From Clostridia bacterium (GTDB taxonomy: Bacteria > Bacillota > Clostridia > Oscillospirales > Acutalibacteraceae): DNA of 52,981 bases. Under the pieces are notes generated by a model. That model ran no database searches and was not told the origin of the DNA. It worked only from the letters and a program-made list of their open reading frames with translations. Shown here one piece after another: positions 3,629 through 34,968 of the stretch; positions within the stretch are counted from its first letter, which is position 1; each line of letters begins with the position of its first letter. Position numbers and translations under genes: made by a program. The stretch lies in NCBI GenBank assembly GCA_017513245.1, contig JAFXGK010000024.1, positions 1-52,981 on the forward strand, read 5' to 3'.

Positions 3629-4189
3629 ATGGAAGAAAAAATCTTAATTACCTCAAAGAAAAGCGAGCAAAAAAGCAGCAATTATACTCCGACGATAATT
3701 TTTGCCATAATAACTGGAATAATATCTTATACAGGCGCTTTCCTAGAAGAAGAACTTCTTATTGTATTTGGCGCCATATTTGCTTTCATTACTATTCTAA
3801 CTGTTCTCGCCAACCACAAAAACAACCCTGGCATCTTAACCGTTACAAACAAAAGAGTATATGGCTGCACAAGTCGCGGTGAACGTATTGATTTGCCTAT
3901 TGACTCAATAACGTCAGTTGGATTAGCTCCATCTTACACCATCATTATTAGAACTTCATCAGGCTCAATTAAGTTTTCACATTTATCTAATTGTAATAAA
4001 TACCATAAAATCATTAGTGATATGTTAATTGAACGACAAGACAAAGAAAAAATACAGTCTACACCGCAAAGCACAGACCAGAATGTTAGTATTATTGAAG
4101 AACTTGGAAAGTTTAAAGAATTACTTGACAAGAATATTATTACACAAGAAGAATTCGAGCAAAAGAAGAAACAGATATTAGGTCTGTAA
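3629..4189 (+). CDS. PH-like membrane protein with SHOCT domain
   Basis: 186 residues. Two hydrophobic segments at about 22-41 and 43-60 form a likely hairpin in the membrane. Residues 65-135 resemble a bacterial PH-like domain (LTVTNKRVYG, then beta strands with IDLPIDSITSV). The last 32 residues are a typical SHOCT motif (LGKFKELLDKNIIT, EEFEQKKKQIL), a short C-terminal module often seen on proteins of mobile regions. The ATG follows GGAGGA. Codons and base composition are clearly more AT-rich than in neighbouring genes, which points to recent transfer. It sits between the rod RNA and the tRNA-Pro-derived units. Its function is unknown; regulation by the leader hairpin is inferred. Confidence 0.75.
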   Translation: MEEKILITSKKSEQKSSNYTPTIIFAIITGIISYTGAFLEEELLIVFGAIFAFITILTVLANHKNNPGILTVTNKRVYGCTSRGERIDLPIDSITSVGLAPSYTIIIRTSSGSIKFSHLSNCNKYHKIISDMLIERQDKEKIQSTPQSTDQNVSIIEELGKFKELLDKNIITQEEFEQKKKQILGL

Positions 4190-4195
4190 AATTAA

Positions 4196-4230
4196 AACTG
4201 TGCCGAACCGAAACGGCACAGTTTTTTGTT
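4196..4230. terminator. Bidirectional terminator
   Basis: ACTGTGCCG and CGGCACAGT arms with TTTTTT on the plus side and AATTTTA-type sequence on the minus side. It ends the SHOCT gene and also lies just after the CCA end of the first tRNA-Pro-like unit on the minus strand. Confidence 0.75.
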
Positions 4231-4233
4231 TTA

Positions 4234-4403
4234 TGGTCCGAGTGACAGGAGCCATAACTGCGGCCTCTTGGCGTGTGCCTACGGCACACGCTCCGCTTGG
4301 CGACCCAAGCCAAAGGCTTCGGTACCCGCCTGCGCGCTCGAAACTAAAAAACAGTTCCCCGAACTGTTTTTTTGCGTTTCGACCCTCTCGGGTTCAAGAG
4401 GCC
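4234..4403 (-). repeat. tRNA-Pro-derived unit A (pseudo-tRNA module)
   Basis: The minus-strand 3' end (4270-4234) matches the tRNA-Pro gene from the 3' anticodon stem through the acceptor and CCA, except for a 7-nt changed block in the T loop. The identity continues 11 nt past CCA (4223-4233). The 5' part of the tRNA is missing; instead there are tight palindromes (GCGTGTGCC/GGCACACGC at 4271-4291, a terminator-like CAGTTC/GAACTG at 4351-4368). The unit closes with an inverted tRNA piece at 4390-4403, so GGCCTCTTG at 4262-4270 pairs with CAAGAGGCC at 4395-4403. It cannot fold as a tRNA. It may be an attachment-site scar or a structured RNA unit. Confidence 0.6.
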
Positions 4404-4430
4404 ACAAATTAAAACTTTTATCATACAAAC

Positions 4431-4469
4431 AAAAAAATGACCTGCGACCAAAAGGTCGCGGGTCATTTT
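4431..4469 (-). terminator. Terminator after tRNA-Pro-like unit B
   Basis: GACCTGCGACC and GGTCGCGGGTC pair around AAAA. On the minus strand the hairpin comes directly after the CCA of unit B and is followed by seven T. Confidence 0.7.
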
Positions 4470-4582
4470 TGGTCCGAGTGACAGGAGTTTCTTCTCCGGC
4501 TATCGAAGGCTCCACCGGAGCCTTCTCCCAAACTCGTTGCTCGTTTCCCTCGCCGAGTTTGGAGGTCGTTTCAACTCCTGTC
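4470..4582 (-). repeat. tRNA-Pro-derived unit B (pseudo-tRNA module)
   Basis: Bases 4490-4470 on the minus strand equal the last 20 or so nt of tRNA-Pro, with CCA at 4472-4470. The body is replaced by two perfect 9-bp hairpins (4505-4525, GAAGGCTCC/GGAGCCTTC; 4528-4562, CCAAACTCG/CGAGTTTGG). An inverted tRNA piece at 4570-4582 makes GACAGGAGTT (4480-4489) pair with AACTCCTGTC (4573-4582), so the whole unit folds as a closed multi-branch structure with a CCA tail. The design matches unit A. No coding potential is seen. Confidence 0.6.
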
Positions 4583-4591
4583 TGCCTTTAG

Positions 4592-4630
4592 AAAATAAAA
4601 CAAAACCGCAGCCTAAAGGCTACGGTTTTT
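4592..4630 (-). terminator. tRNA-Pro terminator
   Basis: AAAACCG-C-AGCC and GGCT-A-CGGTTTT arms around TAAA, one mismatch, followed on the minus strand by GTTTTATTTT. It is 6 nt past the encoded CCA of tRNA-Pro. Confidence 0.7.
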
Positions 4631-4636
4631 GTTTTA

Positions 4637-4714
4637 TGGTCCGAGTGACAGGAGTTGAACCTGCGGCCTCTTGAACCCCATTCAAGCGCGCTACCAAAAC
4701 TGCGCCACACCCGG
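4637..4714 (-). tRNA. tRNA-Pro(GGG), CCA encoded
   Basis: 78 nt including CCA. The acceptor stem CCGGGTG/CACTCGG has one G-T pair, the D stem is GCGC/GCGC with GGTA in the loop, the anticodon stem is CTTGA/TCAAG with loop ATGGGGT (anticodon GGG), and the T stem is GCAGG/CCTGT with TTCAACT loop. It reads proline CCC/CCU codons. It lies 42 nt downstream of HPr with only a weak hairpin between them, so the two may share a transcript. Two partial copies of its 3' end lie downstream at 4470 and 4234. Confidence 0.92.
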
Positions 4715-4722
4715 ATATATGT

Positions 4723-4744
4723 ACCCGCCTTATGAAAGACGGGT
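4723..4744. other. Hairpin between HPr and tRNA-Pro
   Basis: ACCCGCC and GACGGGT pair with one G-T. T6 follows on the plus strand only. On the minus strand, the direction of HPr and the tRNA, no T-tract follows, so it may be a processing or stabilising element rather than a terminator. Confidence 0.4.
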
Positions 4745-4756
4745 TTTTTAGGTTAA

Positions 4757-5020
4757 TTAGTCAGCAAAGCCGCTTTCTACAAGCTTTACAAGCTCGTCTA
4801 CTGCGACAGCTTCGTCAGAACCGTCTGCAATAATGCGAATAGCAGTTCCGCCTACAATGCCGAGGGAAAGCACGCCGAGAAGGCTCTTTGCGTTTACGCG
4901 ACGCTCCTCTTTCTCAACCCAGATGGCAGACTTGAATTCGTTTGCCTTCTGAATGAAGAAGGTTGCGGGACGGGCGTGTAAACCAACCTCGTTCTGAACG
5001 ACTACATCTTTAACACACAT
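4757..5020 (-). CDS. ptsH: HPr family phosphocarrier protein
   Basis: 87 residues, the usual HPr length. GLHARPA near residue 13-19 holds the histidine phosphorylated by PEP-dependent enzyme I in the PTS. AKSLLGVLSLGI near residue 44-55 holds the regulatory serine targeted by HPr kinase. Having both sites argues for true HPr rather than Crh. It acts in the cytoplasm in sugar uptake and catabolite control. AGGAG precedes the ATG. It is a single gene with its own promoter at 5076-5103; enzyme I is not in the window. Confidence 0.93.
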   Translation of the reverse strand: MCVKDVVVQNEVGLHARPATFFIQKANEFKSAIWVEKEERRVNAKSLLGVLSLGIVGGTAIRIIADGSDEAVAVDELVKLVESGFAD

Positions 5021-34062: not shown

Positions 34063-34968
34063 TTACTTAATACCCGAGCTGCTCATTGTCTTGGTTACGC
34101 TTCCCTGGGATATCATATATACCAGTATTGGCGGTATCATCATTATTACCGTTACCGCCATTGCCGAGCCTTGTCGTGTAAGACCGCCTGCGGCGATGGT
34201 CGATGCCGCACTCGGCAGGGTTTTGAGTTCTTCACTGAATACCGTACCGCCTTCGATTAACTGCCACAGATCGCGGAAAGCGAAGAGCGTAAGCGTTAAC
34301 CAGCCGGGCTTAACGATAGGCATTACAAGCTGCCAGAACACACGGAAGGTTCCTGCACCGTCGATTCGAGCTGCCTCGATAAGGGCGGTAGGAACAGCAG
34401 CATCCATATACTGCTTCATAAGGAATACACCCATCGAGGACGGAATCATCGGCAGGATGTATACCCAGTACGTATCAATCATTCCCAGATAGGAATAGAT
34501 AAGATAACGCGGGATAGCCAGTGTGTAGGAGTTGTAAAGAAGGGAGAACTGAATGATGCTGAAGATTATCTTCTTACCGTAAACGTTGGACTTCGAGAGA
34601 ACGAAAGCGCCCATCGAAGCAACAACAACGTGAAGTACGGTAGTAACCACACTGATGAATACGCTGTTGAATATGTATCTCGACAGCGGAACTGCGAGGT
34701 TATCAAGCAGCGAAGGAATTACGGTGTAGTTCTCGATAGTGGGACGGATAACGAAGAAGCGGGGCGGATAAACAAGCAGCTCATCCAGCGGCTTAAACGA
34801 CGTTAAAATCGAATAGATCATCGGCAGTATCGAGAACAGGCCGAACGCTATAAGGAAGAAAGAATAAAAGAAGTTACCTGCTTTGCTGCGGGTGAATCTT
34901 TTATACTGGTCGCGGTGAGAAACCTTCAGGTGGTCAGCGCGAAAATACTGTTTTTTGAATTTAAACAT
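34063..34968 (-). CDS. Carbohydrate ABC permease, MalG type (pair 1)
   Basis: 301 residues, six predicted helices, with the ATPase-contact loop IEAARIDGAGTFRVFWQLV near residue 193 in full EAA form. CUT1-class import of an oligosaccharide with the MalF partner at 34986. AGGAGG lies 12 nt before the ATG. It is close to, but clearly distinct from, the pair 2 permease at 27600, so the locus encodes two transport channels. Confidence 0.9.
   Translation of the reverse strand: MFKFKKQYFRADHLKVSHRDQYKRFTRSKAGNFFYSFFLIAFGLFSILPMIYSILTSFKPLDELLVYPPRFFVIRPTIENYTVIPSLLDNLAVPLSRYIFNSVFISVVTTVLHVVVASMGAFVLSKSNVYGKKIIFSIIQFSLLYNSYTLAIPRYLIYSYLGMIDTYWVYILPMIPSSMGVFLMKQYMDAAVPTALIEAARIDGAGTFRVFWQLVMPIVKPGWLTLTLFAFRDLWQLIEGGTVFSEELKTLPSAASTIAAGGLTRQGSAMAVTVIMMIPPILVYMISQGSVTKTMSSSGIK

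Follow-up and report, generated by a model that had tools for sequence, protein, structure and literature searches.

What are the two additional tRNA-Pro 3' ends that stand behind an intact tRNA-Pro(GGG) gene in this clostridial genome, and what accounts for the inverted tRNA piece that accompanies each of them? The question is raised by the minus strand of the 52,981-nucleotide stretch of DNA analysed here (the window), on which a gene that we take to be HPr-like (5020-4757) is followed by tRNA-Pro(GGG), a hairpin, a first unit, a second hairpin, a second unit and a third hairpin. A preliminary description of the sequence had proposed that two further units end in the tRNA-Pro 3' end and CCA, that a hairpin terminator follows each copy, and that an inverted tRNA piece closes each unit into one structure. 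The features of the locus are the following:

4714-4637, minus strand: intact tRNA-Pro(GGG), the anchor (ARAGORN; Rfam RF00005, 58.1 bits)
4602..4629, minus strand: terminator-like hairpin directly 3' of tRNA-Pro(GGG) (terminator scan)
4470..4582, minus strand: unit 1, made of an inverted T-arm piece, a three-way-junction core and a direct T-loop-to-CCA copy
4573..4582, minus strand: 5' strand of the closing helix P1 of unit 1, GACAGGAGTT, reverse complement of the tRNA T-stem/T-loop
4525..4564, minus strand: helix P2 of unit 1 with its inner tip (covariation)
4506..4524, minus strand: hairpin P3 of unit 1, TCCGGTGGA (covariation)
4490..4505, minus strand: conserved linker of unit 1, CGATAGCCGGAGAAGA
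4480..4489, minus strand: 3' strand of P1 of unit 1, AACTCCTGTC, which is the start of the copied tRNA 3' end
4433..4470, minus strand: terminator-like hairpin behind unit 1 (inverted repeat; the terminator scan places it at 4459-4444)
4234..4406, minus strand: unit 2, made of an inverted tRNA piece (4406-4395), a branched core and a tRNA 3' copy with CCA (4270-4234)
4194..4225, minus strand: terminator-like hairpin behind unit 2 (inverted repeat; the scan places the hairpin on the plus strand)

Both direct copies of the tRNA-Pro 3' end were recovered by a repeat search (4490-4470 and 4270-4234), as initially proposed. Unit 1, the nearest to the tRNA, keeps the full tail, its copy continuing to the CCA at 4470; the T-arm part of the copy in unit 2 has diverged (GCAGTTATGGCTCCTGT versus GCAGGTTCAACTCCTGT). 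The terminator scan returned three hairpins against 1.1 in shuffles, a weak count in itself, and the point is their placement, which agrees with a hairpin behind each copy. The inverted tRNA pieces are also real: 4570-4582 in unit 1 is a perfect 13-nt inverse of 4647-4659, and 4390-4403 in unit 2 lies within a 24-nt, 83% inverse of 4655-4678. The idea that both units are of one type did not survive, the closing piece being an inverted T-arm in unit 1 and an inverted anticodon-stem/variable region in unit 2; judged by this origin in the sequence, the two units are of different types. Closure of each unit into a single structure was borne out by the repeats and by the fold z scores. Unit 1 folds on either DNA strand, with the P1 strands GACAGGAGTT and AACTCCTGTC enclosing hairpins P2 and P3 (z of -4.5 as RNA, -4.1 as single-stranded DNA and -4.4 for the other strand). 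Unit 2 reaches a z of -6.83 as single-stranded DNA; 12 bp (4406-4395/4270-4259, TGTGGCCTCTTG/CAAGAGGCCGCA) close it, and the core that they enclose is branched. Unit 2 combines the layout of unit 1 with a different core, and an E of only 0.36 with model R2 leaves it a putative member of the family defined below.

Is this arrangement an isolated accident? A search of the window's own genome yielded two extra copies of the unit 1 core, and a search of 40 genomes (own and relatives) yielded one more, in G012. The covariance model built from unit 1 and these three copies (R1), which matches unit 1 at 4484-4578, gave at least 50 matches in at least 12 of 394 genomes of the order, with 1-8 per genome listed, including two further own-genome units on contig C26. 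Unit 1 is thus recurrent among relatives. A broader model (R2) and the main covariation analysis were based on 51 matches (49 distinct rows) with E up to 1e-6, from 41 of the 50 match sources; L027, L028, L029, L048, L081, both matches of L082 and L020:1363 were left out here and included in a 59-row run. The match set holds one locus per place (L051 is the same as L007, and overlapping loci were omitted), and its 61 matches minus the two poorest make up the 59 units used for the arm-match and G-T counts. When R2 was applied to a class sample of 391 genomes with E up to 1e-4, a stricter limit than in the R1 search, the only genome matched was the window's own. The R1 match of G155 is weak (E 4e-4) and is lost by R2 at E up to 1e-4. 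Among named genomes, an exact pattern occurs on 7 contigs of four MAGs (RUG14311, UBA1438, Red_deer_4_mag_74 and RGIG3013) with Ruminococcaceae, Eubacterium sp. and Clostridia labels. Many units are only ~150 bp long and lie in arrays; tandem copies occur, for instance at 165 bp in G329:C1, and some are identical or near-identical.

A viral origin was considered on account of a 16-base core pattern present in 16 viral contigs, and was rejected as chance, none of the 16 matching R2 at E<=1. A phage or plasmid origin was likewise set aside: 36 phage and 21 plasmid records have matches to 4720-4230, in no case over more than 80% of the query, and among the 16 matches listed the coverage is at most 19% of the query, at the tRNA end. 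At 34676-34750 the model matches the window once more (E 0.44), falsely, since this place lies within a gene that is presumably ABC-permease-like.

The core of the unit is a three-way junction of P1, P2 and P3. Over 49 distinct sequences, both-side changes are found in 26 of the 28 pairs, including all six of P1, so that the closing pairing is kept by compensatory change, as the preliminary description had wished to see examined. For the same sequences, the covariation score is 0.591 (0.171 when shuffled, at most 0.081 when slid) and 92.4% of the cells are paired (67.6% shuffled, at most 50.2% slid), numbers that lean upward since related sequences were aligned by fitting them to the model. 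With 59 distinct rows, weak ones included, and the same upward lean, both-side changes reach 27 of 28 pairs, the score is 0.579 versus 0.163 and 92.6% of the cells are paired. Chance is an unlikely source of this covariation because the slid controls are low. Unit 1 is accordingly neither a single occurrence nor devoid of covariation. G-T pairs are scarce in these stems, with 2/453 in P3, 25/642 in P2 and 5/278 in P1 (32/1373 for P1-P3 together), compared with 118/1692 in the stems of 78 tRNAs from the unit loci, G000 and G319. This scarcity favours a fold at the DNA level and does not decide the matter, because G-T pairs in P2 far outnumber A-C pairs (25 versus 1), as expected for one folding strand, be it DNA or RNA.

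The next point concerns the neighbourhood of the units. A mobile unit that targets tRNA-Pro had been one of the initial suggestions, and in the choice of target it proved wrong: the anchors span 12 amino-acid types (Pro, Leu, Thr, Arg, Met, Ser, Gly, Ala, Trp, Gln, Lys and Val) and a tmRNA. A same-strand tRNA lies 24-68 nt upstream in 28 of the 59 units, and tRNA and unit are on the same strand in 41/41 pairs within 300 nt. The core stays constant and the arms track the local tRNA. With a few bases' slack allowed in placement, the 5' arm agrees with the reverse complement of the local T-loop/T-stem at 8.07 of 9 positions (7.10 with permuted tRNAs), the 3' arm with the local tRNA at 5.46 of 6 (4.53 permuted) and the tail towards CCA at 8.32 of 11 (5.70 permuted); for none of the three did any of 2000 permutations reach the observed value. 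By eye, the target-derived arms measure ~6-25 nt. The tail is identical at all 11 positions in 13 of the 28 tRNA-adjacent units; among the other 15, those of L081 and L082 read on to CCA and are misplaced by the model boundary, which leaves tails altered in about 13/28. Three of the 28 (L076, L081 and L082) match poorly at the 5' boundary, the inverted T-arm piece of L081 and L082 being just upstream of it. For the remaining 31 of the 59 units, no tRNA was detected within 130 nt; several of these units are at contig ends, second in tandems or behind genes, and in L045 and L071 the unit is preceded only by the 3' part of a tRNA.

A survey independent of the models searched for the exact reverse complement of each tRNA's own T-loop/T-stem 9-mer up to 250 nt downstream, for tRNAs with at least 120 nt downstream and with identical tRNAs of identical flank counted once. 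It was found for 9/23 tRNAs of the own genome, 5/27 of G319, 1/24 of G219 and 0/46 of G190 (a genome in one contig), and the reversed-string control gave 0 in all four. With one mismatch, the counts for the own genome, G319, G219 and G190 were 10, 6, 2 and 0 downstream, 4, 0, 0 and 4 upstream, and 0, 2, 0 and 0 for the reversed string. Inverted T-arm copies downstream of tRNAs in the own genome exceed chance. On the upstream side, exact inverses were seen for 2/23 tRNAs of the own genome and for none in G319, G219 and G190. The own genome also holds other core types behind tRNAs that are weak for R2 (E 0.0018 at the tRNA-Thr of C9 and 0.03 at L133, with fragments at L141 and L143). In G037, the unit layout with another core is seen behind tRNA-Pro(cgg) and tRNA-Pro(ggg) (L010 1575-1668 and L016 1586-1690), and these units carry a 17-nt antisense piece of tRNA-Pro.

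Do the units travel with genes? A complete series of anchor, gene and unit on one contig is present at only two loci, a tRNA-Ser and a tmRNA. On G000:C26, tRNA-Ser(gga) is followed by a unit, a palindromic stretch, a 126-aa ORF, a near-copy of the terminator and a near-identical unit, the two units being 916 bp apart from start to start. On G071:C22, the order is tmRNA, terminator, branched palindrome, 215-aa ORF, GNAT acetyltransferase, terminator and unit; the arm of the unit (GAGAGTCGAA) corresponds to the tmRNA T-arm in reverse complement, but the tmRNA 3' end is not retained in the tail that follows the core. Gene direction was evaluated for eight units without detected tRNA, with at least 500 nt upstream and not second of a close tandem, a cut made post hoc: the upstream gene is co-directional in seven (L002, L007, L029, L054, L145, L146 and L148) and the downstream gene in four. 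The eighth unit, L049, is preceded by an assembly gap and a tRNA-like 3' end. Three of the seven co-directional cases are weak, namely L145 (serine recombinase at a prophage-like end), L054 (biosynthetic gene) and L029 (from G155, E 4e-4), and at L002 and L007 there is no anchor, the contig ending first. In L145 (5440-6921, G052:C13), the gene for a large serine recombinase ends ~45 nt before the unit, at the edge of a prophage-like block.

At L054 (5126-5480), a tandem pair of units lies between two genes, argJ-like and argB-like, which we assume to correspond to argJ and argB of the arginine operon. Sequence resembling the 3' end of argJ is repeated in each unit, and the inverted arm has, by eye, nine bases (CGATTTAAC read back) in common with argJ near a T-arm-like GGTTGCGATT. 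This one case suggests that T-arm-like DNA outside tRNA genes may also serve as a target.

At the Rfam gathering score, the window contains a tRNA only and 18 related loci contain tRNA and Gut-1 (RF01706), the latter outside the units. The Gut-1 matches (L152 345-419 and L151 693-767, on G000:C9 and C22) lie between a tRNA-anchored unit and an ORF, the ORFs being of 93 and 166 aa and without Pfam hit. Behind the tmRNA of G071, the genes come after a branched palindrome of similar kind, with ATGAAG/CTTCAT as its basis. Gut-1 is found inside two cassettes and differs from the units in both sequence and structure; PMC2864571 describes it as an RNA motif known from human gut sequences only. A literature search that included passages of PMC2864571 and PMC8040213, with subscription journals mostly outside its scope, returned no description of such tRNA-anchored units.

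The search for an enzyme was made in several ways. The window's contig (C45) has no PF00589 or PF07508 match, and none of 11 tyrosine recombinases (G000, G012, G046, G052, G071 and G089) is above the 265-bit cut-off of the integron integrase model TIGR02249. A group of XerD-like recombinases of ~280 aa (A5; members L086, L085, L098, L105, L106 and L111), whose six aligned members reach none of the NCBIfam cut-offs listed, occurs in at least 112 of the 394 order genomes (E up to 1e-55), with at least six copies in some. As a dedicated enzyme it was rejected, its presence in at least 6/12 unit-bearing genomes versus at least 106/382 others being too weak. The unit-bearing G012, outside the 394-genome sample, also has A5. 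A large serine recombinase was rejected too: it is present in 9/10 unit-bearing genomes and absent from G068 (G155, G061 and G370 were outside this set). An integrase encoded at L087 (G000:C32:5800-6288) is presumably Bacteroidetes-like; its contig may be foreign, assembly contamination being 4.83%. No unoccupied counterpart of this locus was found, because the contig of the same-genus genome G002 ends just short of the HPr-like gene. By eye, the tRNA-Pro genes of G007, G026, G030, G028 and G002, at different loci, have no unit directly behind them.

Taken as a repeat, the structure reads T-loop to CCA, terminator-like hairpin, at two loci gene(s) and a second hairpin, then inverted T-arm piece and core; another tRNA 3'-end copy stands behind the core, and P1 is built from local T-arm sequence. 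We propose, with a probability of about 0.55, that unit 1 belongs to a dispersed family of short integrative cassettes, which use a folded attachment site to insert at the T-arms of tRNA and tmRNA genes. The attachment site would consist of the core and P1 folded from single-stranded DNA, and a recombinase would join this folded site to a double-stranded T-arm. The inverted arm may serve to rebuild a T-arm-like duplex together with the 3' arm on the folded single strand. An incoming cassette would bring a new tRNA 3' end and terminator and shift the old ones downstream, and the three tRNA-Pro 3' ends of the window, each with a different terminator, could be the record of two successive insertions. 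The complete tail of the unit nearest the tRNA and the diverged T-arm of unit 2 hint, from two units only, that insertion may always be tRNA-proximal. As a guess, the arms might adapt to the target in two steps, overlap identity during the exchange and then either template-switch correction of the quasi-palindrome or selection for pairing.

How does this proposal relate to known systems? Elements that integrate into tRNA genes usually leave a duplicated tRNA 3' end as their mark. The units share with these elements (phages, ICEs, IMEs, islands and tycheposons) the duplicated 3' end and the intact tRNA, and differ from them by their size of ~150 bp, their arrays, and a covarying folded core with an inverted arm. 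They also differ in that the unit examples contain no recombinase gene, one G052 unit adjoining a serine recombinase. To our knowledge, an inverted arm is absent from ordinary integration scars, and we agree with the initial argument that a plain scar does not explain the closing piece. Integrons are the textbook case of gene capture via folded single-stranded sites, with attC boxes of the type RYYYAAC ... GTTRRRY. The units resemble attC sites in their tandem arrays behind an anchor, in a site structure more conserved than its sequence and, at the two loci complete on one contig, in the order of gene then folded site on one strand; gene-less cassettes would be the minimal form. However, neither box of the R-box pair is present in the outer 30 nt of any of 51 units, the anchors are many (tRNAs and a tmRNA) where integrons have one attI, and the site is a three-way junction whose arms vary with the anchor. 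The units would work somewhat in the manner of an integron, but with no attC boxes and no integron integrase among the 11 recombinases scanned they do not appear to be one. IS200/IS605 and PATE-type elements have folded single-stranded ends and choose their target by pairing; the units would share both traits, but have no fixed ends, and their arms vary with the anchor. We therefore file the family as a variant of tRNA-integrating mobile DNA, with the integron-like reading beside it.

Other explanations have to be weighed against the cassette proposal. The units could represent a structured non-coding RNA family, transcribed and folded into the three-way junction with a tRNA-like CCA end, perhaps acting in tRNA processing or as a decoy. 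Covariation on the tRNA-sense strand, the 25 G-U against one A-C in P2, the full 11-position tails in 13/28 units (with L081 and L082 continuing to CCA) and the terminator-like hairpins behind the window units would all suit such an RNA. However, the window units start close behind terminator hairpins, G-U is nearly absent in P3, about 13/28 tails are altered, one tandem pair lies behind a protein gene (L054) and the units are covered by no Rfam family. The scan for sigma-70-like promoters adds weakly to this, with none at 4150-4800 and 0.2 in shuffles. This option, which the preliminary description had put forward as tRNA-tailed structured RNAs, is disfavoured by the position of the units behind terminators, by the lack of a promoter in that scan and by the pair behind a protein gene, and we regard it as unlikely.

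Less likely still is a gene-less palindromic repeat of the MITE or REP kind, moved by a transposase preferring T-arms, with intervening genes present by accident. Its multi-copy, patchy distribution would be accounted for, as would the 28/59 units that lie within 68 nt of a tRNA and have no room for a gene; the ends of MITEs, however, are constant, whereas here the ends vary with the target and the core is constant, and terminator plus unit flank whole genes at the tRNA-Ser and the tmRNA. We find it very improbable that ordinary prophages or integrative elements left the units in tRNA genes as remnant attachment sites separated by unrelated palindromes: one covarying core stands behind 12 tRNA types, an inverted arm is foreign to ordinary scars and tandem copies are identical or near-identical, even if duplicated tRNA 3' ends are typical of tRNA-integrating elements and the L145 unit, 45 nt past a serine recombinase, borders a prophage-like block. 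The alternative of a mobile unit with a folded site at a tRNA, also raised at the outset, is broadly retained (copies are dispersed and in tandem, their distribution is patchy, tRNA 3' ends are duplicated, and at two loci genes stand between anchor and unit), with tRNA genes as the target; specificity for tRNA-Pro is replaced by the T-arms of many tRNAs and one tmRNA.

To summarize the locus, the observation behind the preliminary description is confirmed and is larger than first described. If the proposed cassettes are what they seem, the family could, more tentatively, be a second integron-like, non-homologous gene-capture system of gut Clostridia, in which any tRNA or tmRNA T-arm would serve as a dock, a structure-reading recombinase would act on a branched single-stranded site, and the arms would be rewritten for each tRNA, allowing one family to spread over many tRNA genes. 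The family is defined by its model, its 12 genomes and its arms well enough for testing in isolates. If true, it would offer a genomic home for the orphan Gut-1 motif and would help to explain why genes and repeats gather at the 3' ends of tRNA genes in these bacteria. It would also constitute a second, independent route of gene capture, which docks at tRNA genes and copies its target into its own arms.
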